From IMG/VR virus record IMGVR_UViG_3300046734_000276, positions 1 to 25,455 of that record: a stretch of 25,455 bases of DNA. The stretch is one strand, 5' to 3'. A model generated the notes under the pieces. The model did not search any database. It was not told the origin of the DNA and saw only the letters and a program-made list of their open reading frames with translations. The translations under genes and the position numbers were made by a program. Numbering within the stretch: the first letter of the stretch is position 1; each line of letters begins with the position of its first letter. The DNA is from a virus. Positions 2,536 to 19,787 of this stretch are shown here, one piece after another.

Positions 2536-4134
2536 CTATGCGAGTGTTTCTAAACCATTAACGTATACCTTACCGTAGAACTCACCTCTTACCATTTGCT
2601 TAGCGTAACGTGTCATTACACCTTTTCTTGGAGTGAAGTTTGTTGGGTCATATACCAACGGAGTCATGATTAATGGAATGTATGGAGCGTAAACTGCGCC
2701 AGTTTCCAAGAATTGAGCACCCTTGAAGCCCATCAATACGACATTAGATGTCAAATATGGGTTTTTGTATACTTGGTAACGATTCGCGAATGAACCTACT
2801 TGAGATACACCCATTGCGAATTGCATATCAGCACCAGTACCATTAGCAGCAAATCCTGGGATTGATTCCAAGATAGTTGCAACGTCAGGAGAAACTACCA
2901 TAAAGTTAGCTCCACCTCTCATGGTCTTAGCATGAATTTGGTTAGATACTCTCTGAAGAACAGTACCAAGAGTTTGGAACCATTGTTGTTGAGTGTAACG
3001 TTGTACGTCATTTGCTGCAGGTGCAGTAAATGCTGAACCATTCCATGAAGAACCTACTTTAGCAGACCAGTGACCTTCAGTCAATGCGTTTTCCATCAAC
3101 ATATCTAAGATTTCGAGGTCGATTTCTTGAGATACGTATTCAGACAACATTGAAGTCAATTCAGCTTCAGCATCAATACTATGGTAAGCGTTCAAATCTT
3201 GAGCGAATTCCGGCGTCCATTGTGCTTTCAACTTACGAGTCTTAGCAACGATTGGCACAGAGCGTAGCTCTACGTTCAATTCTGGAATACCTATGTCAGC
3301 ACCAGTTGTGTCTTCGAAGTCACCACGAGTGATGTCAGTTGGTTGTTTCTGATATTTAACAGTTACATTACCAAAGTCAGTATCACGAGCAACGAATACG
3401 ATGTTTTCACCAGCTAAACGAGTGTACTCAGCGTAGTACTCGTCAACACCTTCAAGTGAGAATGCACGTGCACCTTCACTATCGAAGTTTGCGATAGACG
3501 CAGTTTGAATAGCAACAGTTACGAGGTCAGCATCGTGAACAGCCCATACTGATTGAGAGAATGCTGAATCATAGTTGATATCAGACATACCCAAAGATGC
3601 AGTAGCGTAAGCGTTTGCACCAACTGAAGTAGCTAATGCTTGAGCAGCAGACTCATCTTCATTGATAGAGTATCCGAAACGACCTGCACCATAAAGACCT
3701 TCAGAAACATCACCAGCAACTTCGGTAACACCGAATACTGAGTCAGTTTGTGAATTTTTACCAGCACCAGTTTCGAAACCTGGCTGAGCAGTACCATACT
3801 TGAAGTCAAGATAGAATACAAGACCTGAAGGTAGGTTCATTGGTTGTACTGAGACGAATTCTTTTGCAGCGATTTCGCTGAAGATACGTCTTACTAATGG
3901 AAGAGCGACACCGGCCCACTCTTCAGAGTTTGCAGCAGTACCTGTGCTTGATGCTTCAGATACTAATTGCTTTGCTTGGTTTTCCAACAATGTAGCAATA
4001 CTTGCTCTTTCGAAGTCAGCGTCAACGCCTTCCAAAAGACCAGTTTTTTCCCACTTGGCTACAAGGCCTTTAGCCTCTTCGCTCATTTTTTTGTTGAAAC
4101 CAGCAGATTCGTTTAATAGAGAATTTGTGTTCAT
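2536..4134 (-). CDS. 23: Major capsid protein, T4 gp23-like
   Basis: 532 residues, close to the 521 of T4 gp23. The segment VRRIFSEIAAKEFVSVQPMN at about 81-100, followed by PSGLVFYLDFKYG, matches the conserved gp23 core in which IPNLIAFDICGVQPMN-type sequence precedes the HK97-fold body. Near residue 60 the sequence QLVSE/ASS is in the same place and form as the T4 maturation cut (FLTE/A after residue 65), so residues 1-60 are probably a propeptide removed by gp21. A second LNE/S occurs at residues 7-10. AAAGGA lies about 9 bases before the ATG. The gene follows scaffold gp22 by 30 bases and ends at a strong hairpin terminator, as expected for the most abundant late product. No separate vertex paralogue (gp24) is seen in the window. 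Confidence 0.95.
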   Translation of the reverse strand: MNTNSLLNESAGFNKKMSEEAKGLVAKWEKTGLLEGVDADFERASIATLLENQAKQLVSEASSTGTAANSEEWAGVALPLVRRIFSEIAAKEFVSVQPMNLPSGLVFYLDFKYGTAQPGFETGAGKNSQTDSVFGVTEVAGDVSEGLYGAGRFGYSINEDESAAQALATSVGANAYATASLGMSDINYDSAFSQSVWAVHDADLVTVAIQTASIANFDSEGARAFSLEGVDEYYAEYTRLAGENIVFVARDTDFGNVTVKYQKQPTDITRGDFEDTTGADIGIPELNVELRSVPIVAKTRKLKAQWTPEFAQDLNAYHSIDAEAELTSMLSEYVSQEIDLEILDMLMENALTEGHWSAKVGSSWNGSAFTAPAANDVQRYTQQQWFQTLGTVLQRVSNQIHAKTMRGGANFMVVSPDVATILESIPGFAANGTGADMQFAMGVSQVGSFANRYQVYKNPYLTSNVVLMGFKGAQFLETGAVYAPYIPLIMTPLVYDPTNFTPRKGVMTRYAKQMVRGEFYGKVYVNGLETLA

Positions 4135-5356: not shown

Positions 5357-5614
5357 TTATCTTGCTTCTTGTTGTCTACGGACCCAATCAGCTCGTCTAG
5401 CATCATTCATTTGTTTACGTTTACGTGTAGTCGGTTTAGTGTATTCCCTATTTTGCTTGATAAGGTCAATTACACCATTATCTTTCATAATACGTTTCCA
5501 CTTTCTAAGTGCTGCTTCAATGTTATTATTAATAACCTTTACACCATTAGCATGACCATATAGGAATAACTCCTCACGTTCTTTTCTTACTTTTTTTTCT
5601 CGTTTGTATGACAT
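5357..5614 (-). CDS. rpsU: Phage-encoded ribosomal protein bS21
   Basis: 85 residues. From about residue 25 the sequence follows the bS21 pattern: a short beta-like start (VKVINN), the helix NIEAALRKWKRIMKDNGVID, then NREYTKPTTRKRKQ and a basic C-terminal helix. In bacteria bS21 binds the small-subunit platform near the 3' end of 16S rRNA, next to the anti-Shine-Dalgarno sequence. The first 24 residues (MSYKREKKVRKEREELFLYG) are an extra basic/acidic extension not usual in bacterial bS21. Viral bS21 genes are known from marine and freshwater phages. No Shine-Dalgarno is visible: the bases before the ATG are nearly all A/T, although many neighbours have GGAG or AAGGA. The gene lies inside the head cassette with its own promoter-like motif at 5665-5672, pointing to late expression. 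Confidence 0.88.
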   Translation of the reverse strand: MSYKREKKVRKEREELFLYGHANGVKVINNNIEAALRKWKRIMKDNGVIDLIKQNREYTKPTTRKRKQMNDARRADWVRRQQEAR

Positions 5615-5688: not shown

Positions 5689-5847
5689 TTAAGACATTTT
5701 ATCTAAACCATCTTTAAAATCAGATATAAGATTTCCAAATTCTTTTTGTTTATCGGCTGGTAACCTCTTAATCTTTTTAAGGTTCTTTTTGATAAATGAT
5801 GAAAAATCAACACTTATTTCTTGAAGTCGTTCTAAATCACGATTCAT
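5689..5847 (-). CDS. Small hypothetical protein (52 aa)
   Basis: The ATG at 5847 shares its A with the TAA stop of the upstream gene (TAATG), a typical coupled start. The frame runs 52 codons to a TAA at 5689. The product is charged and predicted helical: it begins MNRDLERLQEISVDFSSFIK and ends FKDGLDKMS, with a Lys-rich centre (KKNLKKIKRLP). No family is recognised. Codon use resembles the neighbours, and it fills a gap of about 180 bases that would otherwise be empty in a tightly packed cluster. It lies between the 325-residue core-like protein and the terminator before bS21, so it is probably the last gene of the gp21 transcript. A small head-core component is possible, as T4 has such proteins (gp67, gp68) in this region, but no similarity was established. 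Confidence 0.65.
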   Translation of the reverse strand: MNRDLERLQEISVDFSSFIKKNLKKIKRLPADKQKEFGNLISDFKDGLDKMS

Positions 5848-6824
5848 TATTTCTTAACCTTACCTTTTTTGATATCTCTTTCAAGTTCTTCTGCAGCTCT
5901 TAATACATCTACAACTGATATATTAATTGGTACTTGACGATATTTTGATATTTTACGAACTGCCAACATCACAATTCTTTTTTCTTCGCTAGAAGCACCT
6001 TCTCCAATAATATCTTCGGTTACTGATTCAAAGTAAAGGTCAGACATCTTATCTTGAAGTTTAGGGTTTTTAAAATCAAACTGATACTTTTCCATTGCTC
6101 TTCTGGCTTTCAATGCCGATTTAGCAGCAACTACAAAGTATCCTTTTTTAGAACCACCTAATTTCTTTTGTAGTTTATTTGCTTGGTCTTTAGTACCAAT
6201 ACCCTTTTGGTTTCCCTTTGGGTCTATTATTGAGTATTTGTTTTCACTTAGTATATCAGTTAGTTTCATTGACGATTCTTCATTTACAGATTCTTTAGCG
6301 AATTCTTTAGCGTTTTCCTTGTCGTCCTTATCAACGTCTTTTACTGGAAATTCTTTACCATCTACTTCGAACTCATCATCACCATTAGCAATTGCTTTCG
6401 CTCTTGCAGCGCCGAATTCGTTACCTTCTTTGATTTCGTAATACTTACCAAGAACTTCGCCCATCTCATCGTAACAAGACTCAAGTCTTTGTTGTAGGGT
6501 ATTTACTTCTTTGATTGTATTAGTAAATACTTTGAATGACTCATTCATAGACTTCATGTGTCTACCAACAGTTACCTTGTCAAACCAATCTCCAGTTTCC
6601 TCAAGAGTTACCTTGTGTGCAGTCTCTACAATACCTTTAATAGATTCGTATACTTCTGCCAAATTACCTGAACGGTAGATTGACTCACCGAATTTCTTGT
6701 ATTCAGAAACAGCTTTAAGGAATTCACGCTTTTCTTCGTTAGTCATTCCCTTTTGGGTTTCTTCATCGTTTATCTTCATACGTTTGTATGTAGATTCGTT
6801 TAGTAGTTCTTTTAAATTTTTCAT
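5847..6824 (-). CDS. Putative head-core/internal protein with capsid-targeting-like leader
   Basis: 325 residues. The first ten (MKNLKELLNE, then STYK) match the form and length of the T4 internal-protein leader (MKTYQEFIAE/A), which directs proteins into the prohead and is cut by gp21. Residues 11-180 are helical and charged. At 182 (SVNE/E) a new segment starts with MKLTDILSENKYSI, which itself resembles the leader, suggesting an old fusion of two packaged proteins. Residues 195-270 contain YFVVAAKSALKARRAMEKYQ and end LYFESVTE/D. This module is repeated in the 289-residue protein at 13495-14364. Residues 275-325 are a short basic tail. The ATG shares its A with the gp21 stop (TAATG) and has GGAG before it. 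Function is inferred from position between gp21 and gp22 and from the sites; it could simply be a scaffold partner. Confidence 0.6.
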   Translation of the reverse strand: MKNLKELLNESTYKRMKINDEETQKGMTNEEKREFLKAVSEYKKFGESIYRSGNLAEVYESIKGIVETAHKVTLEETGDWFDKVTVGRHMKSMNESFKVFTNTIKEVNTLQQRLESCYDEMGEVLGKYYEIKEGNEFGAARAKAIANGDDEFEVDGKEFPVKDVDKDDKENAKEFAKESVNEESSMKLTDILSENKYSIIDPKGNQKGIGTKDQANKLQKKLGGSKKGYFVVAAKSALKARRAMEKYQFDFKNPKLQDKMSDLYFESVTEDIIGEGASSEEKRIVMLAVRKISKYRQVPINISVVDVLRAAEELERDIKKGKVKK

Positions 6825-7462
6825 TATACTCCAAAATCACATTCACAATATCCACCAACCTCACACATGATGTCTCTCATCATATTGTTAGCTTTATTGT
6901 ATTTATAAGTATTCTTTTTAACAGTAACCGATTCGTTTATCGTACCCTCGTTTGTTGGTGAAAGAAATGCTCCATGAGTTGATGGGTTAGAAACAAAGTC
7001 CCAACATATCAAATCAAAGTCTTGTTCTACTGCGACGGTGTCTTCACCAATTTGTTTTACGGAACCCATACCTCTTGACGAGATACCAACAGTACACCCA
7101 GCTTTTACTAATTCTTGTAAAATCTTTCCAGCTGGTGTATTTAGTATTTCAACTGTTCCAACAACATCATCACCATTCCATGATACTTCACGGATAATGT
7201 GTGATGTGTTCTTTAATTCGACTACACCACTTTCAGGATGGTCCAATTCACCATAAGCACGATTCTCTTTGATTTCACGTCCTTGGTATTTCTTTACTTC
7301 ACGTTCTAAGATGTTACGTGGATACACTCTACCATTTTGGTTTTTAGCATCAGCACGTTGTAACACACCATTTACTAAGAAACGACCAGTCTGGTCCTTT
7401 GCTTCTTGTAACATAGTAGGTGTTACTTCAAATATCATTGTATCTACAAGTAGTTGTTTCAT
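6824..7462 (-). CDS. 21: Prohead core protease, T4 gp21-like
   Basis: 212 residues from the ATG at 7462, the same length as T4 gp21. A TTG start at 7516 would extend it by 18 residues into the upstream 46-codon gene and is less likely. GRFLVNGVLQRADAKNQNGR near the N-terminus, GELDHPESG at 71-79 (candidate catalytic His75) and GISSRGMGS at 127-134 (candidate nucleophile Ser128 or Ser129) are the marks of the gp21/U9-type serine protease. The family cuts after Glu in (L/I)-x-E contexts in scaffold, capsid and internal proteins. Its own sequence has LQE/A at 18-20 and INE/S at 175-177, which suggests removal of both ends on activation. The C-terminal tail ends in a Cys-rich GGYCECDFGV. It lies between gp20 and gp22 as in T4 and overlaps the next gene by one base. 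Confidence 0.92.
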   Translation of the reverse strand: MKQLLVDTMIFEVTPTMLQEAKDQTGRFLVNGVLQRADAKNQNGRVYPRNILEREVKKYQGREIKENRAYGELDHPESGVVELKNTSHIIREVSWNGDDVVGTVEILNTPAGKILQELVKAGCTVGISSRGMGSVKQIGEDTVAVEQDFDLICWDFVSNPSTHGAFLSPTNEGTINESVTVKKNTYKYNKANNMMRDIMCEVGGYCECDFGV

Positions 7463-9023: not shown

Positions 9024-10874
9024 TCAAATCGTGTCATCGATAAGATTTCTCTCATCTAATAAACCCGATTCAGCCTTTTCATCTTCTAATAAAGATTCAT
9101 TTAGAATCTTAGTTGTTTTGCGTTTAACGTTTTTCAAAGATGATTTCAAAGCTTGTGTTTGCTCGTAAGCAAGTGGTGAATTTTTATACTTATGATATGT
9201 TGCGGCTGGTTTAATATCGGTCTTTTGACCAAGTGGGTCTCTACCAAATGCACTATCATCCGTTTTATAGTTACCTGATGTTGATGGTCTACCAGCACCA
9301 TCAAACCCACCTTCAGGAGAACCACCATCATCGTTAGGTGTTTGATGCATTTGTGCCAAATCGTGTGGTGTACCAAATGACTCGCCAGTTTTAACTGGAT
9401 CATTACCTTCATCTTCAATTTGAGCTTGTCTAAATCCGAGTTTTAAATCTCCAATAACTTTACCTTGTTCAAGAGCCCACTCATCATCACTCATATTGAA
9501 TATGTTCTTATACATCCATTCTTGAGAAACCATTTTGAGGTCTTTCATATCAGATACCAATGATACCTTCTCAGACCACAATGCAGCTTTCTCTTGTTCG
9601 TATATGATAGATGGGTTTGTAAGTTCCAACTCAAAGTTAACAAGGTCTTCGTTTTCGTAACCTTGTGAGTATAAGTGAACGATTGCAATCTTAGTTAATT
9701 CAGAAAGAACAATCTTTTGGATTCTCTCAACTGAACGTGCGAATCTGATATCCTCTTGTGCTAATGTTGCTTTACCTTCAACTGACTCATCGTACCCAAT
9801 AAATGCTTTTGGTACTTTTAGTGCAGCCATCATTCTATTTCTTAGGTATTCGATATCATCAATACCACCGAATTCCATACCACTTAATGTATCTATCTCA
9901 GTACCACTCTGACCACCACGAACTGGTAGGTAGTAATCATCTAACATATTCATTAGATTAAACTTGAGATTGTAGTCACCAGTATTTTGGTCAAGATATG
10001 GTACTTTCTTCATTTGGTCAATGATACCTCTCATGTGGTTATCAACTTCACCAGGTGGAATGTTACCTACATCAATTTTAAATGTACGTCTTTCAGGTGC
10101 TCTCATAATTCTATGAATCATCATAGCATCTTCCATAAGAGTCAACTGCTTCCAAGTCTTTCTTGCACCTTCTAATACCGAACGACCATATGGAAGGAAG
10201 TTTGTATCTGCTAATAAACGGAAATGTGCGATTTGATAGAACTCAAAGTAATCAGCGTTCTTGTTTACACTTGCACCATGAGCAGCACCCATTGAACCTA
10301 ATTTAAATCTTACTTCGTATGGGTTTTCGGGATTAAACCCTTCTTCTCTTTCTACTTCGTATGCTGACATTGGTGATACGTTTACAATACCAACACCTTC
10401 TTCAATATCAAGATGTAGGAAGTAGTCACCATATTTATTCATACCACGAATCCAAGCCCAAAGATTGAACTCAATATTCATTACATCGTAAAATAGGTTG
10501 TGAAGAATCTTTTTTACGTTCTCGTCATCAGTTTTAATTCTAAGAACATCACCCATGTCATTTTTTAGAGTACACTCATCGGCGTATATATCTAATACTG
10601 AGTTTAGAATGGAATCTTTATCCATTGCTTCGTAATCAGTATATAGTTCTAATTTATTTGAATGATAATTAAATTGATTGTTATACGTTTCCCAATTTCT
10701 ACGAGAGGTATGCATTCTACCAAACCTATCGTAATAAGATGAACCACGGAGGTTACCCTGAGATTGTAGTCTTTGAGTATCGATAGTTTGGGTACGGCCC
10801 TTACCAATCCTACGGACAACAACTTGAGTGTTGAATAATTTTCCTAACCTATTAAATAGTGATTTATCTGCCAT
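9024..10874 (-). CDS. 20: Portal vertex protein, T4 gp20-like
   Basis: 616 residues, somewhat longer than T4 gp20 (524). The core contains conserved portal phrases: YTDYEAMDKDSILNSVLDIY, then YADEC, AWIRGMNKYGDYFLHLDI, a segment of the ADTNFLPYGRSVLEGARKTW type, and RIMRAPERRTFKIDVGNIP. The portal forms the dodecameric ring through which DNA is packaged and ejected, and it nucleates the prohead. The C-terminal about 120 residues are Gly/Asp-rich and disordered-looking (GSPEGGFDGAGRPSTSGNYK), and include KILNE/S near residue 593, a possible gp21 site that would remove a 23-residue tail. A promoter-like motif (10913-10920) lies 38 bases before the ATG; the Shine-Dalgarno is weak. It directly follows the terminase gene, with none of the usual sheath or tube genes between. 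Confidence 0.95.
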   Translation of the reverse strand: MADKSLFNRLGKLFNTQVVVRRIGKGRTQTIDTQRLQSQGNLRGSSYYDRFGRMHTSRRNWETYNNQFNYHSNKLELYTDYEAMDKDSILNSVLDIYADECTLKNDMGDVLRIKTDDENVKKILHNLFYDVMNIEFNLWAWIRGMNKYGDYFLHLDIEEGVGIVNVSPMSAYEVEREEGFNPENPYEVRFKLGSMGAAHGASVNKNADYFEFYQIAHFRLLADTNFLPYGRSVLEGARKTWKQLTLMEDAMMIHRIMRAPERRTFKIDVGNIPPGEVDNHMRGIIDQMKKVPYLDQNTGDYNLKFNLMNMLDDYYLPVRGGQSGTEIDTLSGMEFGGIDDIEYLRNRMMAALKVPKAFIGYDESVEGKATLAQEDIRFARSVERIQKIVLSELTKIAIVHLYSQGYENEDLVNFELELTNPSIIYEQEKAALWSEKVSLVSDMKDLKMVSQEWMYKNIFNMSDDEWALEQGKVIGDLKLGFRQAQIEDEGNDPVKTGESFGTPHDLAQMHQTPNDDGGSPEGGFDGAGRPSTSGNYKTDDSAFGRDPLGQKTDIKPAATYHKYKNSPLAYEQTQALKSSLKNVKRKTTKILNESLLEDEKAESGLLDERNLIDDTI

Positions 10875-13494: not shown

Positions 13495-14364
13495 TTACCA
13501 CTTACGGCAAGACCAATATCTAGCTTTATGTCTTGGTCCTGGATTATCACAATTGTGTCTTGCTCTAAATGCCTTACGTCTCGCAGGGTCATTCTTTTTG
13601 ATAGACATAGTTTTACCCTTTGCTGAAGAGCCACCATGTCCAAAGTTTACCTTTACAACATTTCCTTTTGGATTCTTTACATACACTTTAAACTTTTTAA
13701 CATCACCTTGCATTGGCTTACCAAGTTTTACATCACGACCTTGATACTCTGCTTCATCAAGTGTTGGGTTTAGTGCGTAGATGTCACTATTCTGCTCTTT
13801 ATGTAGATTTAACATCTGAGAATATTCTTTCATAAAGTTTATGAAGTCATGTGTTTCTTCAATACTTTCTACATCATATTCTTCAATCACCTCATCACCT
13901 TCGTTTCTTCTCTTCTTAGAGTAGAGGTAGTCTTTATATAGTTCTTCATAATCAACACCATCTTTCTCATAATCTGATAACGCTTCAGTTGATACTGATT
14001 CCTTGTACAATTTAAACATCGAATCTCTGAACTTAGTATTACTAAGGTCTGACTGATATTTTTTGATAAGTGATTGTGCTTTACTTAGGTTTTTCTTTGA
14101 TACGATGTAGTGTGTTCCTTTACCTCTATATTTCTCAAAGGAATACCACATATTACTTTCAAGACCCTTATCAACGACTTTACCATCTTTGTCAAGTATC
14201 ATATATAATCCACTTGAATATGTAGCTTCATTTTTAAATGATGATACATATGGGTTGTCAATTACCTTACCCAGCTCAGTAGTAAAACCATACTTATCTT
14301 CCATAAAGCCTTTTACGTTATGGTATTCTTCTCTGATTAATTCCTTGAGTTGTGTTTTAGTCAT
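13495..14364 (-). CDS. Modular putative internal head protein with FRARHNCD C-terminal domain
   Basis: 289 residues. N-terminal module about 1-123 begins MTKTQLKELIRE/E, leader-like, and contains THYIVSKKNLSKAQSLIKKY, ending KLYKES. This aligns by eye with residues 229-267 of the 325-residue protein near gp21. An acidic linker follows (about 124-200). At TLDE/A (204/205) the C-terminal module starts: YQGRDVKLGKPMQGDVKKF, VYVKNPKGNVVKVNFGHGG, and a terminal Arg/Cys/His unit with RRKAFRARHNCDNPGP and ARYWSCRKW. His270, Cys272, His279 and Cys286 could bind metal. I know this terminal unit as a recurrent uncharacterised domain in marine phage proteins. The gene starts one base after the 598-residue protein stop with AAAAGG before it. 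I infer a polyprotein cut by gp21; a plain structural protein is the alternative. Confidence 0.65.
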   Translation of the reverse strand: MTKTQLKELIREEYHNVKGFMEDKYGFTTELGKVIDNPYVSSFKNEATYSSGLYMILDKDGKVVDKGLESNMWYSFEKYRGKGTHYIVSKKNLSKAQSLIKKYQSDLSNTKFRDSMFKLYKESVSTEALSDYEKDGVDYEELYKDYLYSKKRRNEGDEVIEEYDVESIEETHDFINFMKEYSQMLNLHKEQNSDIYALNPTLDEAEYQGRDVKLGKPMQGDVKKFKVYVKNPKGNVVKVNFGHGGSSAKGKTMSIKKNDPARRKAFRARHNCDNPGPRHKARYWSCRKW

Positions 14365-14365
14365 C

Positions 14366-16162
14366 TTACTTTACCTTTTTAGCCAATGAGTAAAAGTCAA
14401 TGTTGAATCTAAAACCAGCACCATCGTAATCTCTATCCACTTCAACTGGAACTTTAAGTTGTTTCTCAAGTGTCTTTCTCAATTCTTCTTTCACATCGAC
14501 ATCATTTTCAACTGCACCTTGGAGACCATCTAAGTCATTACCACTTGCAGCGATTAGGGTCAATCCCTTTGAGTCACCCATAACTTTAAAGTTTACTGAG
14601 TCTTTACCCAATCTCACTTTTGCTTCTTTGATGATACCTTCACCGAATTGTTTAACCATTTTCTTTTGAACTGGGTTATTAGGTTTACCTGCGATTGCAG
14701 ATACTAACTTCATTCTATCAGCAAGTTTACCTTTCTTAACGAATTGGTATACTTTCTCAATGTCTAATTTGTTATCATCAACAAACTTTTGGATAGCATC
14801 TTTATTCATGCCAGTCAAACCACCAATTTCCATTGCAGTTCTTGTTGTAGACTCATTTACCTTTACACCAACGGGTTTGTTAGATTTTACAATCATACCC
14901 TTAGCACCATCTTTCTCAACCGATTTTAAGAATTTCTTAGCATCAGCTTCTTTTGCATATACAGCTGATGATGGTTTTATATTTTTGTTAGGTAAATCTT
15001 TTTTGTCCTTAAACATCACTACAAATACTTTATCCTTAGCTTCGTTTACTGATTCGTCTACTTTATACTTGTAGATTACATCACTTCTATCTCTTAACTT
15101 AGTTTTGTTATTTTGTAAATCATAGCTAGGGTTTGCAGTAGTTGCTTTAGCAAACTTACCATTCTTTAAATAAAATGCACCAATACGAGAATTGTTATCA
15201 TCGGTTACATAGAATACTGCGTTTTTCTTTTTCTTAGATAATGCAACAATATCAGTAAGGTTTTTAGCTTTGATGAATTTACCATATCCTTCGTTTACTG
15301 ATTCATTCATATATTTCTTCCAATCTTTGTGTTCAGGCGCGAGTGCAGTACGACCCATATTTTTTTTCAAATCTTTGTTCTGCTCTCTATTATCTGGATG
15401 TGCAATTCTTGATGCAAATTTGTTTTTCATATCTACATAGAAATGTGCTCCAAAGTAATCTATGATATAAGCACCCTTCTTACCTTTGATTGTATCATAT
15501 TCGTTATGAAGTAATACACCAGGAACTTTCAATCCGATTCCTGAGTGACCTGATACATATTTGATTGGAGTATCTCTATACAGCTGATAGTAAGCGTGTC
15601 CTCTTTGTGGAGTAATCATACCTTCTTCTACTGATTCACTTTTCCAACCACCACCTGCTTTTTTGTATTGTTTTGCAGCCCATCCATTTGCGTATGCTGA
15701 TGGGTATACATCAAACTTCTTCTTTGCTTGTGCTTTATAGTAAGACCATTTAGATGGGTTAGTTGGTACATTCTTCTCGTCCAATTGTTCACCCTCTTTA
15801 ACTAATGACTCTTCAATTGATTCTTTTAGTGACATCAATCTATGTCCGAAAGACCCACCAATTGACATACTTAGATAAAATGCAAATGCGTCAATTATAT
15901 CGTGACCATCGTACTTTGCAGCTTTAGCAATAGCAATACCCTTACTTTCAATTACATCTTCCATTGGTGTACCAATGAATTTCTTACCTGCTTTTGGAAA
16001 GTATTTACCTAATTGCTTTGCTTCACTATGAAAGTTAGCATCAGTTAAGGCGCCTCTCATAATCAGCATAACCGATTCGTGATGTTCTGGCGAATTCTTT
16101 TTCTCATCTTTTAGATAATCATCTAAAAACTTTTTAACTGATTTATTTAGTTTAGTATTCAT
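14366..16162 (-). CDS. Large multi-module protein with repeated ES-V-x-E linkers, putative head polyprotein
   Basis: 598 residues, with a strong AAGGAG four bases before the ATG. The protein reads as about seven compact modules separated by protease-type linkers: LKE/S and IEE/S (114-118), LDE/K (129), SVEE/G (180), MNE/S then SVNE/G (287 and 291), VDE/S then SVNE/A (370 and 374), VNE/S (437) and IKE/A (513). Recognisable pieces are the N-terminal helical module (IMRGALTDANFHSEAKQLGK), a small aromatic unit at 137-173 (FDVYPSAYANGWAAKQYKK), a beta-rich unit at 182-280, short alpha/beta units at 292-369 and 375-436, a helical unit at 438-512, and a final alpha/beta unit at 514-598. No enzyme signature is seen. 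The linkers fall in hydrophilic gaps and recur in nearly the same form, which supports cutting into separate head-internal peptides. That is inference. Confidence 0.62.
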   Translation of the reverse strand: MNTKLNKSVKKFLDDYLKDEKKNSPEHHESVMLIMRGALTDANFHSEAKQLGKYFPKAGKKFIGTPMEDVIESKGIAIAKAAKYDGHDIIDAFAFYLSMSIGGSFGHRLMSLKESIEESLVKEGEQLDEKNVPTNPSKWSYYKAQAKKKFDVYPSAYANGWAAKQYKKAGGGWKSESVEEGMITPQRGHAYYQLYRDTPIKYVSGHSGIGLKVPGVLLHNEYDTIKGKKGAYIIDYFGAHFYVDMKNKFASRIAHPDNREQNKDLKKNMGRTALAPEHKDWKKYMNESVNEGYGKFIKAKNLTDIVALSKKKKNAVFYVTDDNNSRIGAFYLKNGKFAKATTANPSYDLQNNKTKLRDRSDVIYKYKVDESVNEAKDKVFVVMFKDKKDLPNKNIKPSSAVYAKEADAKKFLKSVEKDGAKGMIVKSNKPVGVKVNESTTRTAMEIGGLTGMNKDAIQKFVDDNKLDIEKVYQFVKKGKLADRMKLVSAIAGKPNNPVQKKMVKQFGEGIIKEAKVRLGKDSVNFKVMGDSKGLTLIAASGNDLDGLQGAVENDVDVKEELRKTLEKQLKVPVEVDRDYDGAGFRFNIDFYSLAKKVK

Positions 16163-16170
16163 AATACTCC

Positions 16171-16470
16171 TTAGTTGATGTATGCGTTTAACTCATAACC
16201 CTTCTTCATACCATATACTTGGATTTGAAGAGACTTACGTTGTGGTTTACCACCTTTAAGCAATCTAACTGTGAACTCAGTAGTTTTACCTTCACTTGGT
16301 CTTGAACGTTTGTTACGACCACCCATTACAATCTGAGACTGCCAATCGTCTTCATCAATTTCAAATCCACGTTTTTCAGCAAGCTTCCTTGCTTCTTCAG
16401 ATGCCGCGGTAAATGATTTGTGATATATCTTGTAATCACTCTCGTTTAGTAATTGTTTTAGCTTAATCAT
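16171..16470 (-). CDS. Small putative head-internal protein with capsid-targeting-like leader (99 aa)
   Basis: 99 residues from the ATG at 16470, which comes one base after the upstream stop. A longer frame to 16542 exists but overlaps the upstream gene by about 70 bases and is less likely. The N-terminus MIKLKQLLNE/SDYK has the leader form at the same position (10/11) as the 325-residue protein near gp21 and as T4 internal protein III. The rest is a small alpha/beta domain: a helix (ASEEARKLAEKRGFEIDEDD), an Arg-rich turn (MGGRNKRSRPSEGK), and beta strands ending KSLQIQVYGMKKGYELNAYI. I recognise this as a recurrent uncharacterised unit in marine myoviruses. Whether it binds DNA is unknown; the basic turn would allow it. 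It lies 8 bases upstream of the 598-residue polyprotein-like gene. Confidence 0.65.
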   Translation of the reverse strand: MIKLKQLLNESDYKIYHKSFTAASEEARKLAEKRGFEIDEDDWQSQIVMGGRNKRSRPSEGKTTEFTVRLLKGGKPQRKSLQIQVYGMKKGYELNAYIN

Positions 16471-16471
16471 A

Positions 16472-16882
16472 TTATGCCCCAGTTTTTGAGTATGTTGGTT
16501 TTTTTCCTTTGGTACTATTACCACCTCGTTTAGAGTCACCACTTTTCTTTTGTGCAGCTCTTTTTCTATTTACGAAAGACGCTCTACCCTTTGGTCCAAG
16601 TTTTGCAGCCTTTTCTTTTGATAAACATGCAGCGTATGCACCACCATCTTTACCATCACCACACTTACCTAACTTCTTACCATCGGAACTATATCTATCC
16701 CATCCACCACCATCTGATGAACCGGTCTTACCTTTACCAAACCACTTACGCAAATCTTCGGTCATTACACCTTCAGAACATAGTCGTTCGTAAACATCGG
16801 AAATGGTATACTCCATAGCTAATGTATGAGGTATACCATCTTCGGTGTAGAATTTATATGTTTCTTTAATAAATGTTTTCAA
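16472..16882 (-). CDS. Small basic protein with KWFGKGK...CLSKEKAAK unit (136 aa)
   Basis: 136 residues from a TTG at 16882 placed 7 bases after GGAG and one base after the upstream stop; this spacing favours TTG over the internal ATG at 16816. After a short N-terminal part, GVMTE/D (42/43) is a possible prohead-protease cut. The remaining unit is basic and Gly-rich: LRKWFGKGKTG, GGGWDRYSSDGKKLGKCG, AACLSKEKAAKLGPKGRASF and a Lys/Arg/Gly tail ending KPTYSKTGA. Cys74 and Cys86 are the only cysteines in this unit. I know similar KWFG-to-CLSKEKA units from phage and large-virus proteins, without assigned function. The strong positive charge fits a DNA-associated protein packed into the head. The gene is followed by the 99-residue leader protein with a one-base gap. 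Confidence 0.65.
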   Translation of the reverse strand: MKTFIKETYKFYTEDGIPHTLAMEYTISDVYERLCSEGVMTEDLRKWFGKGKTGSSDGGGWDRYSSDGKKLGKCGDGKDGGAYAACLSKEKAAKLGPKGRASFVNRKRAAQKKSGDSKRGGNSTKGKKPTYSKTGA

Positions 16883-16883
16883 T

Positions 16884-17462
16884 TTATTTCTCCAATTTTT
16901 GGATAAAGGTTTCTTTAAAATTTTGAAACTCAGTTTCTATCTTTTCTTCAATCTCTTCCCATGAACCACCATCCCAATCTTCAAGTGACCCATCTTCATT
17001 CACAAACCTAGCTTTCATAGCTAACTTTATAGTATCCTTTTCCAACTCAGCTTGGGCTAACCAAGCTTTTGCGTTTTCTAGCTTCTTTTTACGTTCATAC
17101 TCACTATACGTACCATCAATTTTCATTTGATGTTCCATACTAATAACACAATTTAGACACATACCATGAATGGCCTGCATCTTAATATCGTTACGAGTTG
17201 GATTCGTATGCGACGTACACGTATCTTTTTTACAATTAGGAAAGTCCTTGAGCGTGTTTCTCAATTCCGAAAGTTTACCAAGTTTTACTTTGTATCCTTT
17301 CTTCTGCTCCCATGTATTTCCATCATCATCAATCCACTGGTCACCAACTTCTCGTTTGACGAACTCTTTATGTGCATCAAATGCCACCGTGTTCTTTGTT
17401 TGTGTTCGGTGGTTTCCAGCAATCATTTCTTTGACTGCCTTGATGTTGTTTAATTTTGACAT
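16884..17462 (-). CDS. Conserved hypothetical protein with Cys4-type cluster (192 aa)
   Basis: 192 residues. The N-terminal phrase NNIKAVKEMIAGNHRTQTK is followed by a beta-like region with DQWIDDDGNTWEQKKGYKVK, then a candidate zinc site: Cys77 and Cys82 (NCKKDTC), and Cys102 and Cys105 (HGMCLNC), with His85, His99 and His111 nearby. The C-terminal half is a charged helix (YERKKKLENAKAWLAQAELE) and an acidic tail with FVNEDGSLEDWDGGSW. I recall this as a conserved uncharacterised protein in marine T4-like phages. A small zinc protein acting on nucleic acid or assembly is possible, but no fold is certain. There is no Shine-Dalgarno: only A/T-rich sequence lies between the promoter-like motif at 17489-17496 and the ATG. 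It is the first gene of a tight run down to 13495. Confidence 0.68.
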   Translation of the reverse strand: MSKLNNIKAVKEMIAGNHRTQTKNTVAFDAHKEFVKREVGDQWIDDDGNTWEQKKGYKVKLGKLSELRNTLKDFPNCKKDTCTSHTNPTRNDIKMQAIHGMCLNCVISMEHQMKIDGTYSEYERKKKLENAKAWLAQAELEKDTIKLAMKARFVNEDGSLEDWDGGSWEEIEEKIETEFQNFKETFIQKLEK

Positions 17463-17488
17463 AACTTTTTATATATAACTTTTATTAC

Positions 17489-17496
17489 TATAAGTA
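17489..17496 (-). promoter_or_regulatory. Late-promoter-like motif TACTTATA before the modular-protein operon
   Basis: Coding strand TTAACATACTTATAGTAA, directly after the stop of the nucleotidyltransferase-ligase gene and 26 bases before the ATG at 17462. It probably drives the run of five genes down to 13495. Confidence 0.5.
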
Positions 17497-17498
17497 TG

Positions 17499-19787
17499 TT
17501 AAAAATACATTAAACCAAGGATTTGGTTGAGTGATGCAAATGTACCTGTAAGTTTCATGGTGTATCCTTTATATGCGAATACCAATCCCTCATTTGGAAC
17601 AATCTTATCTCTACCACCTACGGCTTTTAGTCTTTCTAATTCTAATTTTAATTTTTCAATCTTTTTTGGGTCGCCTGATTTCCTAACGTCTTTGATGGTT
17701 TGGTCGAGTCGTTTTTGCATTGCACGAAGAGCTTTGTCTGGATTTACAGTTAAAGCTGATGACATAAAGGATAATACCTCGGCACCTACACCTAAGAATA
17801 TATCTTCAAACTTACGTATGTTTTGTTTGGATATTTTAATTTGGTCTATTTTATCAGTCTTCTTTGCCCAATCTAATGTTTTAGAATCAGAAATGTTTTT
17901 CTTATCCAAACGGAATCCCTTATCATAAAATGCCCAACGTTTAACAAGACCCATTTTGGTTTTGTTGTCTAATGAAGATGGTGAGTTTTTATCAACATAC
18001 TGTTCCCACCAACGTTGATGGTATTCAGCTACACCATCACTATCTTTAAGTTTAAATTCTTTTTGAACTTTAGATAATTGACTAAAGAACTTTGATTTCA
18101 TTTTTGATAGTTCTTGATTCTTTGGGAGAGTTACAACCGGAGGGCCTTGTATTGTATATGCATCTTGTACATCCGCATTTACTTGTTTAATCATACCGGC
18201 TAAGATTCTTGCATCAGAGGTGTCTGCTCCAATAGCTTCACCTTTTTCGTTGTATTCCATAGTTCCATGAAATACTAATAGGGGTTGACCATATGGTACT
18301 ACGTTTACTGACTCCGGCCAGATGACTTCGATGTTCATAAACTTTGAACCATTCTTGAAGACTTTTTCTTTTTGTGCTTTTGATAGTTTTGAAATCGCAG
18401 ATTCCAAATCTCTCATAGCGAAATTATACGCATCGGTCAAACCACCTCTATTAGCAAATTTATCTGAAACACCCTTAATGTCTAATGCATTAAGTCCTTT
18501 ATCTTTTAGATGTGATTTATTTCTTGCAGCGATGATACCTTTGTCACTTCTATATGATATAGCAAGTGCTTGTCCATCGGTTTTTTCTCGTGTAAATTCT
18601 AACTTACCATTTAGAGCGTTATCTATTATTATTTTTAAATCACCAAATGTAAGGCCTAACTCAATATCAAATGGGTGATTCATATGACCATATGCACCAC
18701 CTTCATTAAGAATACCTTCTTTTAGATTATTTTTTTTATCTTTAGTTTTTTCATTATCAATTTTAGAAGTAAGATTTTCAATATCCTTTGGTTCAGCAAA
18801 CTTAACGAATTCCATACCCAAACGAAGGGCAACTTTCTTAATATGTTTAGCCCACTTTTTATATCCTGGTCTGCCGGTTACATCCGTTCCATATCTCGCT
18901 TTCTGACCATCCATGGTATCACCACTTGGAAAAAATGATACCGGATATCTACCAGACCCATTAGGGTATGATGTATCAAATGACTCCATGGAATCATCAT
19001 CCATTAGGTATGATATAATTTGCCAACCTAATGTAGAAGTTACATCATTCATCTCTTTCTTAAAAGTTTTCATATTACCATAGAAAGCGCCAGGACCATC
19101 ATCTACTATACCCTTACCACTTGGTGGTAATGATGAAGCTTCGGATAACATTTCATTAATATCAAATGTTTGTAAGAACGATTCCATTACGGATTCTACT
19201 TTTATTAAACGACCTGAAACTAAATCATAAATCTTTTGGTTGAACTTTGGGTATACTGACTTGAAAAACTTAATACGAGATTTCTCATCCGAATCAGACA
19301 TACCTTTACGAACTTGAGTACCAGATATTCCGTTTCCTTGTGATGGGGATACATAAACATAACCAGCATCAGCATAACCCTTTTCTACCTTACCCTTATA
19401 TGGTTCAAAGTATTTACCACCCAATCTACTCTTGTCCTTCTCACCAACTACTGTGATAAATGCAGTAGTCTCTTCTGAAAATGATTGTAGAATCTCTTTT
19501 GGTGAATATGGGTTTTTTACCTTTACTATTTTATTTTTGGGAATACCAAACATAGTAGTCATTATCTTAACTTTCTCTTTGAAAGTGAATGGTGACTTTG
19601 GTAATTGTACCTTATCAGACGTACCTATATACACATTATCTTTACCAAACTTTTTAACTAAGTGTTGGTATGTTGCGTTATGGCCAGAATGGAATGGATG
19701 AAACCTACCTACGTAAGTTACCACTGTTTTTTTAATGTCTTCGGTAAGGATTGATTCCGTTACCCATTCGTTTATTAATTTTCCCAT
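17499..19787 (-). CDS. Nucleotidyltransferase - unknown module - ATP-dependent ligase-like fusion (762 aa)
   Basis: 762 residues. Residues 21-200 are a cytidylyltransferase-like (NMN adenylyltransferase type) domain: GRFHPFHSGH at 27-36 with the HxGH site, and ISGTQVRKGM at 154-163, matching the second ISxTxxR nucleotide-binding motif. Residues 217-360 form an unassigned module (IVDDGPGAFYGNMKTFKKEM onwards). From about 363 a covalent nucleotidyltransferase (DNA/RNA ligase) domain follows: motif I EKTDG with candidate Lys402, FMNIEVIW at 483-490, EGLVF at 733-737 (motif IV) and MKLTG at 744-748 (motif V, Lys745). Protease-type sites fall at the N-terminus (INE 7, VTE 11, LTE 16) and between modules (VME/S 202, INE 212, LSE/A 216; LKE/G 357, LNE/G 362). 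AGGA is 12 bases before the ATG. Roles could include NAD synthesis, RNA or DNA end repair, or counter-defence; substrates are not shown. Confidence 0.78.
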   Translation of the reverse strand: MGKLINEWVTESILTEDIKKTVVTYVGRFHPFHSGHNATYQHLVKKFGKDNVYIGTSDKVQLPKSPFTFKEKVKIMTTMFGIPKNKIVKVKNPYSPKEILQSFSEETTAFITVVGEKDKSRLGGKYFEPYKGKVEKGYADAGYVYVSPSQGNGISGTQVRKGMSDSDEKSRIKFFKSVYPKFNQKIYDLVSGRLIKVESVMESFLQTFDINEMLSEASSLPPSGKGIVDDGPGAFYGNMKTFKKEMNDVTSTLGWQIISYLMDDDSMESFDTSYPNGSGRYPVSFFPSGDTMDGQKARYGTDVTGRPGYKKWAKHIKKVALRLGMEFVKFAEPKDIENLTSKIDNEKTKDKKNNLKEGILNEGGAYGHMNHPFDIELGLTFGDLKIIIDNALNGKLEFTREKTDGQALAISYRSDKGIIAARNKSHLKDKGLNALDIKGVSDKFANRGGLTDAYNFAMRDLESAISKLSKAQKEKVFKNGSKFMNIEVIWPESVNVVPYGQPLLVFHGTMEYNEKGEAIGADTSDARILAGMIKQVNADVQDAYTIQGPPVVTLPKNQELSKMKSKFFSQLSKVQKEFKLKDSDGVAEYHQRWWEQYVDKNSPSSLDNKTKMGLVKRWAFYDKGFRLDKKNISDSKTLDWAKKTDKIDQIKISKQNIRKFEDIFLGVGAEVLSFMSSALTVNPDKALRAMQKRLDQTIKDVRKSGDPKKIEKLKLELERLKAVGGRDKIVPNEGLVFAYKGYTMKLTGTFASLNQILGLMYF

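Follow-up and report, generated by a model that had tools for sequence, protein, structure and literature searches.

The virus record IMGVR_UViG_3300046734_000276 of IMG/VR was analysed over its complete length of 25,455 bases (the window); it may be a fragment of a larger genome. Its minus strand carries a T4-like head gene cluster, and preceding the head genes in transcription order lies a set of genes that probably encode polyproteins cut by the prohead protease and carried in the head as cargo. An earlier note, made from the sequence alone, had proposed this for four open reading frames (ORFs) of 762, 136, 598 and 289 residues. All four are present where that note placed them, on the minus strand; it had missed two genes lying between them, of 192 and 99 residues (Table 1). 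Protease and capsid protein were assigned by profile. Terminase, portal and scaffold were assigned by position relative to annotated Microcystis phage Mel-JY01 and Flavobacterium phage immuto, the nearest named phages by capsid protein (57% and 55% identity). The gp21 homologue reported earlier is real (Peptidase_S77, E 2.9e-31), with position 7462 as its likely start, as given there. It is 33% identical to T4 gp21 over 161 residues, with GEL(D/N)HP and SSRG in common, and is encoded in the same head cluster as its candidate substrates. The same locus with the same gene order occurs in a 178-kb relative (G001). For comparison, viral contigs were scanned with the 762-residue protein, and 78 loci were used, the best of 133 relatives.

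Segments of the 598-residue protein match separately in relatives, and from these its modules were taken as approximately residues 1-115, 130-175, 181-290, 292-370, 375-437, 438-513 and 514-598. Residues 522-598 match stand-alone small ORFs in three loci (L039, L073 and L077). The protein holds 13 [LIVM]xE sites, and the doubled forms MNESVNE and VDESVNE described in the earlier note are both found in it. A structure model based on 30 sequences had a mean predicted local distance difference test score (pLDDT) of 66.9. Its low-confidence breaks (124-130, 175-180, 286-294, 371-377, 429-439 and 509-511) are the predicted seams. Nine of the 13 sites lay no more than two residues from a segment with pLDDT below 50; circular shifts gave a mean of 2.73, and only 1 of 597 shifts equalled the observed number. 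Within the first linker, sites 123 and 129 lay at or within segment 124-130, and sites 114 and 118 in a predicted helix. Glutamate (Glu) was conserved to 84% on average at the sites versus 57% at other Glu positions, with the G001 copy as query. In these pairwise comparisons a gap-counting flaw pushed some percentages for the hydrophobic position (P3) above 100 (142 and 150), and the Glu column alone was relied on. The start of the protein, MNTKLNKSVKK, is without a targeting-like peptide. Foldseek returned no match for the model at E <= 0.001 and further fold comparison nothing above Z 5.4, which proves little because the model is weak. A DUF5872-like module (window 15647-15766, minus strand) is shared with phages that infect Synechococcus and members of the Roseobacter group.

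Table 1. Features of the window (arrow, putative cut; aa, residues)
Feature	Position	Strand	Basis
598-aa putative modular polyprotein	14366..16162	-	segments matching separately in relatives
linker LKE↓SIEE↓SLVKE↓GEQLDE↓K, residues 112-129	15776..15829	-	ORF translation and model
seam ESVEE↓G, residues 176-180	15623..15637	-	Glu in 26/26 aligned relatives; pLDDT<50
seam MNE↓SVNE↓G, residues 285-291	15290..15310	-	model, conservation; exact DNA word GAATCAGTAAACGAA in window
seam VDE↓SVNE↓A, residues 368-374	15041..15061	-	model, conservation; exact DNA word GAATCAGTAAACGAA in window
seam KVNE↓S, residues 434-437	14852..14863	-	Glu in 9/9 aligned relatives; pLDDT<50
seam GIIKE↓A, residues 509-513	14624..14638	-	adjoins pLDDT<50 segment; Glu in 4/5 relatives
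762-aa putative polyprotein	17499..19787	-	domain profile, fold match, motif
linker with VME↓S, INE↓M, LSE↓A, residues 197-216	19140..19199	-	low pLDDT, as throughout middle part
linker LKE↓GILNE↓GGAYGHM, residues 355-362	18702..18725	-	conserved [LIVM]xE before GGAYGHM
289-aa protein	13495..14364	-	C-terminal module phrog_7595
junction LDE↓AEYQGR, residues 202-204	13753..13761	-	[LIVM]xE before A-EYQGR in 43/43 distinct sequences
325-aa gene, start MKNLKELLNE↓S, inner ESVNEESSMKLTDILSE↓N	5847..6824	-	longer strings in two relatives
99-aa gene, N-terminal targeting-like peptide MIKLKQLLNE↓S	16171..16470	-	nested in 123-aa GTG ORF of ORF list
136-aa protein, TTG start	16472..16882	-	cluster member, no junction demonstrated
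192-aa cluster gene	16884..17462	-	no junction seen
gp21-family prohead protease	6824..7462	-	Peptidase_S77 profile; T4 gp21 alignment
gp23-like major capsid protein	2536..4134	-	Pfam Gp23, E 1.5e-77

The 762-residue protein consists of a nicotinamide mononucleotide adenylyltransferase (NMNAT)/cytidylyltransferase fold (about residues 20-198), a middle part (about 217-356, edges inferred) and a ligase-like domain with KTDG (363-762). The first domain was matched by profile (PF01467, E 1.1e-4; phrog_395, E 4.6e-14) and by fold (best Z 13.0, root-mean-square deviation 3.8, 162 residues). Likeness to NMN adenylyltransferases was seen with NCBIfam (E 9.1e-7, far under the model cut-off) and with PDB profiles (E around 2e-5). 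The C-terminal domain is called ligase-like from the KTDG motif alone; a Pfam scan gave no ligase family, and the Foldseek hit list had an RNA ligase at rank 50 (E 0.036), without display of the region matched. A likeness to T4 RnlB was considered and rejected as not significant, hhalign aligning motif I at a probability of 0.1%. Directly ahead of GGAYGHM, [LIVM]xE stands in all 56 distinct sequences, the window form included, and the preceding residues diverge (GLITE, KLLQE, NIISE, EVITE). The family extends to 1853 residues. CCA-adding-enzyme (PolyA_pol) domains are present in four of five long members scanned (L076:5756-11317, L053:6110-11317, L043:5686-9822 and L034:9041-12949) and HD domains in the first three of these; in all four the additional domains are placed between the adenylyltransferase and ligase-like parts. 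All 11 CCA-type heads have an [LIVM]xE site within 45 residues upstream.

Site numbers were compared with chance by shuffling each of 215 G001 ORFs 400 times, the G001 copies standing for the window proteins. The 598-residue protein had 11 [LIVM]xE[SAGD] sites against 2.1 expected, a number reached in none of the 400 shuffles and the top excess among the 215 ORFs. ES[VLI]xE occurred five times (0.0 in shuffles). The window copy likewise has 11 sites and differs slightly, with ESVEE for ESVNE at the first seam. Enrichment of the 762-residue protein was modest (6 versus 2.6, reached in 17 of 400 shuffles). Other enriched head-cluster proteins were the capsid protein (7 versus 2.6), the 325-residue protein (6 versus 2.1) and a 281-residue protein (5 versus 1.2). 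The 289- and 136-residue proteins were absent from the printed list of site-enriched G001 proteins. Across all of G001 the general motif was mildly in excess (249 versus 209.4). The excess was stronger for NE[SAG] (22 versus 9.2, head genes included).

In relatives, the 598- and 289-residue genes appear as strings of modules, mostly of 50-150 residues, which change in number and order and reach 1123 residues. Among 38 proteins with at least three modules, 37 distinct architectures were counted, a rough figure, with single linkage lumping 108 of 288 pieces. Such mosaics have several unrelated domains per polypeptide and shuffling among relatives, as polyvalent proteins do. We then compared alignment edges with site positions in 99 non-redundant cluster proteins, excluding the 762-residue and portal families and counting edges no more than five residues from a site. 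Alignment starts lay near [LIVM]xE[SAGD] in 158 of 472 cases (59.7 expected, 2.65-fold) and ends in 147 of 398 (51.4 expected, 2.86-fold). The plain [LIVMF]xE motif gave ratios of 1.91 and 2.03, and replacement of Glu by twelve other residues gave 0.48-1.26. As a control, the ratios for 131 proteins from upstream genes, presumably of the tail, were 0.71-0.92. These controls largely disfavour the explanation that Glu-rich composition produces L-x-E by chance and that the genes encode ordinary non-virion proteins. The mild genome-wide excess of the bare motif fits this explanation, and the 136-residue protein and several single sites look that way. It does not account for the excess over shuffled sequences or the conservation in 56 of 56 sequences ahead of GGAYGHM, and we regard it as highly improbable.

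The 289-residue protein has one strong junction, E204↓A, where Glu and the following Ala are found in 49 of 49 aligned relatives; P3 was hydrophobic in 61% of these pairwise alignments, a figure from the comparisons in which the gap-counting flaw arose. Glu was conserved to 78% at its sites and 59% elsewhere (G001 copy as query). Its last module (residues 205-289, phrog_7595) is a separate ORF of 125-138 residues in 28 of the 63 loci that have a match; in other loci it is the final bead of long strings. The phrog_7595 module (window 13495-13752, minus strand) is also found in phages infecting Pelagibacter, Roseobacter, Methylophilales and Flavobacterium. In the 99-residue gene, E10 was present in 13 of 13 aligned relatives, followed by Ala or Ser. 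The 325-residue gene forms part of strings of 676 and 755 residues in two relatives; it lies outside the coordinates given in the earlier note and, judged by these strings, belongs with the putative polyprotein set. The pattern of sites in linkers is therefore found in the 598- and 762-residue proteins and partly in the 289-residue protein, and the comparative data support a polyprotein reading for the first two and for the C-terminal junction of the third. The 136-residue protein, in which no module junction was seen, drops out on both counts.

We next related these sites to those of the prohead protease. T4 gp21 is expected to undergo C-terminal processing (PMC9026906, partial text). In an alignment of 11 proteases, read by eye, every tail contains [LIVM]xE with Ser or Gly as the next residue, though its position varies slightly. 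The forms are TINE↓SV in the window, EITE↓SQ in T4 (cut position inferred), NESVINE↓G in the relative G006, LNE↓G in immuto and (V/M)NE↓S or LKE↓(S/G) in others. Self-cleavage of the window protease at TINE↓SV is predicted from the alignment, and the polyprotein seam NESVNE↓(A/G/S) is by sequence the same kind of site. T4 gp23 loses 65 residues (PMC9958956, partial text), which places its cut at FLTE↓A. The window capsid protein is predicted to be cleaved at the matching LVSE60↓A, and (L/V/I)xE↓A was seen by eye at this place in seven relatives and Immutovirus. The hydrophobic-x-Glu sites of the polyproteins thus resemble the capsid-protein and protease sites of the same phage, which are themselves predictions. 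Precedent for cutting after Glu, for targeting peptides and for an injected internal protein (IPI) exists in T4 (PMC9026906, PMC9958956, partial texts).

The ten-residue T4 signal acts in targeting chiefly through residues 4 and 7 and in processing through residues 8 and 10 (PMC9026906, partial text). The starts of the 99- and 325-residue genes are in its register (hydrophobic at 4, 7 and 8, Glu at 10). Looser targeting-like forms, rejected by the search patterns, begin the 762-residue (MGKLINEWVTE) and 289-residue (MTKTQLKELIRE) proteins. The strict pattern was found at the start of 13 of 88 cluster proteins (0.39 expected) and in 15 inner copies (1.4 expected), in a set that includes four manually added proteins and several orthologous copies. 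Several inner copies retain Met, for example ESKSMKLTSMLNE, which gives the impression of genes joined end to start. A looser pattern matched 10 of the 215 G001 ORFs, where shuffles gave 3.88, and some of these matches began after the first residue. Three G001 ORFs far from the head cluster, starting at 28659, 78463 and 81052, begin with MHSRYAELLNE, MKLKQLILEG and MNLINKLIKE and may be further cargo. The portal C-terminus (window 9051-9107, minus strand) ends with the sites LNE↓SLLE and LLDE↓R. The head region also contains a small basic ORF (window 5357-5614, minus strand), whose positional counterpart in Mel-JY01 bears the annotation ribosomal protein S21 (RpsU).

Conservation of the ESVNE linker extends to the DNA level, a new observation here. 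Identical 15 bases were used in 41 of 61 ESVNE copies from 32 proteins, where codon usage in those proteins predicts 3.9. Orthologous peptides had drifted more, VYPSA having its top DNA word in 8 of 22. A 20-base form had 76 exact matches in IMG/VR; the longest ORF spanning each of the 76 translates there as N-ESVNE-A, and a head or cluster marker is present at 65 of the loci. The other 11 are without a head marker in the stored stretch (L134, L146, L147, L153, L154, L174, L184, L185, L187, L192 and L196); L134 and L184 share contigs with L027 and L011, which carry the cluster. The exact 15-mer occurs three times in G001, always at seams of the 598-residue gene, once in G006 and not in Mel-JY01, so the word is confined to part of the group. 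Because the linker is conserved as DNA as well, cut signal and recombination joint may coincide in it. Recombination alone could also produce this conservation if the strings were multidomain 'polyvalent' proteins that are never cut, whether or not they are packaged, with ESVNE as flexible linker and recombination joint only. The polyvalent type is already established, and some of its members are packaged without being cut (PMC5512222, partial text). A recombination seam would preserve DNA; the ligase-like junction keeps the protease-type hydrophobic-x-Glu in 56 of 56 sequences despite varying neighbours, which recombination does not explain. Since the sites also resemble the predicted protease sites, we consider uncut proteins unlikely.

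Taken together, it is probable that the strings are cargo polyproteins cut by the prohead protease, a variant of both the T4 internal proteins and the polyvalent proteins. Module shuffling at the sites, the kept hydrophobic-x-Glu, the low-confidence seams, the likeness to the predicted sites of the protease and the capsid protein and the targeting peptides give this reading strong comparative support. Several results weigh against it. Sites 72, 114, 118 and 559 of the 598-residue protein lie inside predicted helices, and of the ten low-confidence segments of its model four contain no site. Model confidence was low (predicted template modelling scores of 0.30 and 0.37 for the 598- and 762-residue proteins). 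The 762-residue model (mean pLDDT 60.5) was weak across residues 212-372 save a short stretch, so its sites were not judged by it; the adenylyltransferase fold is all that this model supports. Site-rich proteins also occur outside the G001 head cluster (8 versus 3.6, 6 versus 2.4 and 4 versus 1.0), and in G001 itself the strict targeting-like start is present in only 2 of the 19 genes of the cluster, compared with 2 of the remaining 196. The edge test counts as supporting evidence, because a shared motif can itself stretch alignments. The expected depletion of sites inside modules was not found (68 versus 36.2), in a test whose module interiors may include unrecognised seams. The 136- and 192-residue genes show no seams, and in the 325-residue protein Glu at sites is hardly better conserved than Glu elsewhere (63% versus 52%, G001 query). 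We infer that the cluster proteins are cut, packaged and ejected. Retention of many pieces is without precedent in phage SPN3US, because the cuts identified there, self-cleavage aside, yield N-terminal propeptides (PMC10052503, partial text).

The undepleted module interiors would also suit scaffold-like prohead core proteins that are cut like T4 gp22, gp67 and gp68, with fragments that mostly leave and nothing delivered. The strings are located among core genes, and T4 core proteins are indeed cut to fragments that are mostly removed (PMC9026906, partial text). The gp22-like scaffold of G001 had 10 sites against 6.4 expected, which was not significant. Enzyme-fold modules (NMNAT-like, CCA-adding-enzyme), seam sites and shuffling are not expected of a disposable scaffold, and we give this explanation only a small chance of being right.

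In the preferred cargo-polyprotein reading, the 598- and 762-residue genes, and also the 325- and 289-residue genes, would encode precursors of small modules joined by linkers with cut sites for the gp21-family protease (hydrophobic-x-Glu, then Ser, Ala or Gly). Late in infection the precursors would join the prohead core, partly via N-terminal peptides that resemble the targeting signals of T4 internal proteins. The protease, activated in the finished prohead, would cut the capsid protein, the scaffold and itself and free the modules, which would be retained beside the DNA in the head and delivered into the next host. The linker DNA GAATCAGTAAACGAA would act as a short repeated homology that allows module exchange. 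A further step is a 'cargo array' of exchangeable cassettes joined by a 15-bp seam that is a recombination joint and, once translated, a protease cut site; we are evenly divided over this step. If it holds, new cassettes would automatically be packaged, freed in the head and injected, and the counter-defence set could be swapped fragment by fragment, linking the maturation of virions to a means of exchanging cargo quickly. Modules flanked by seams or headed by targeting peptides would then mark candidate injected phage proteins, and unknown-function modules of these T4-like phages would become a testable list of candidate delivered counter-defence proteins.

The domains present, an NAD (nicotinamide adenine dinucleotide)-synthesis-type adenylyltransferase and a ligase-like domain here and CCA-adding-enzyme and HD domains among the relatives, suggest that the modules may help against defences that deplete NAD or cut tRNA. 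From the NMNAT-like, CCA-type and HD domains, NAD supply and tRNA repair are plausible functions, and packaged NAD-related and RNA-repair proteins are published ideas that fit it (PMC9503650, partial text). PADLOC gave no match at E <= 0.01 among five window proteins scanned. A comparable cluster adjoins the head genes of the cultured relative Immutovirus, Flavobacterium phage vB_FspM_immuto_2-6A grown on Flavobacterium sp. LMO8, with site counts of 8 versus 2.1 expected (gp071), 8 versus 4.5 (gp067), 5 versus 2.8 (gp077) and 7 versus 5.1 (gp088). Its gp079 contains MNE↓SVNE↓G, though its total is not in excess (6 versus 5.5). Immuto gp088 (L201:19132-21855; 907 residues, annotated NadR) has two HExxH-like stretches by eye and resembles polyvalent proteins; a Peptidase_M91 match in it was weak (E 0.0063, below cut-off). 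A literature search brought up no proteomics paper on Immutovirus that we recognised.

Among papers on prohead proteases combined with polyproteins, ejection or internal proteins, judged by titles, the openings of abstracts and selected passages and with subscription journals thinly covered, none described such a cargo polyprotein. The T4 core proteins gp22, gp67 and gp68 likewise have many cut sites used inside the prohead. The inner body and ejection proteins of phiKZ and SPN3US, cut by gp175/gp245, are similar as head cargo with multiple cut sites after Glu. Polyvalent proteins (Iyer et al. 2017, PMC5512222, partial text) are similarly large and multidomain, have conflict-type domains and are predicted to be packaged and injected, and the polyprotein analogy was drawn for them there. 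Their processing is ascribed in that text mainly to embedded peptidase domains, whereas here it would fall to a separate prohead protease acting at uniform linkers; family scans listed no peptidase family for the window strings. With T4 IPI, IPII, IPIII and Alt the strings would share cutting after Glu by an S77 protease. The register of the start peptides is common as well (MKTYQEFIAE↓A in IPII/IPIII and MAKINELLRE↓S in gp24, compared with MIKLKQLLNE↓S and MKNLKELLNE↓S here). In contrast to the T4 internal precursors, which in the partial texts cited above lose end peptides and leave one retained protein each, the genes described here would yield many proteins per gene, with repeated inner sites and shuffled modules.

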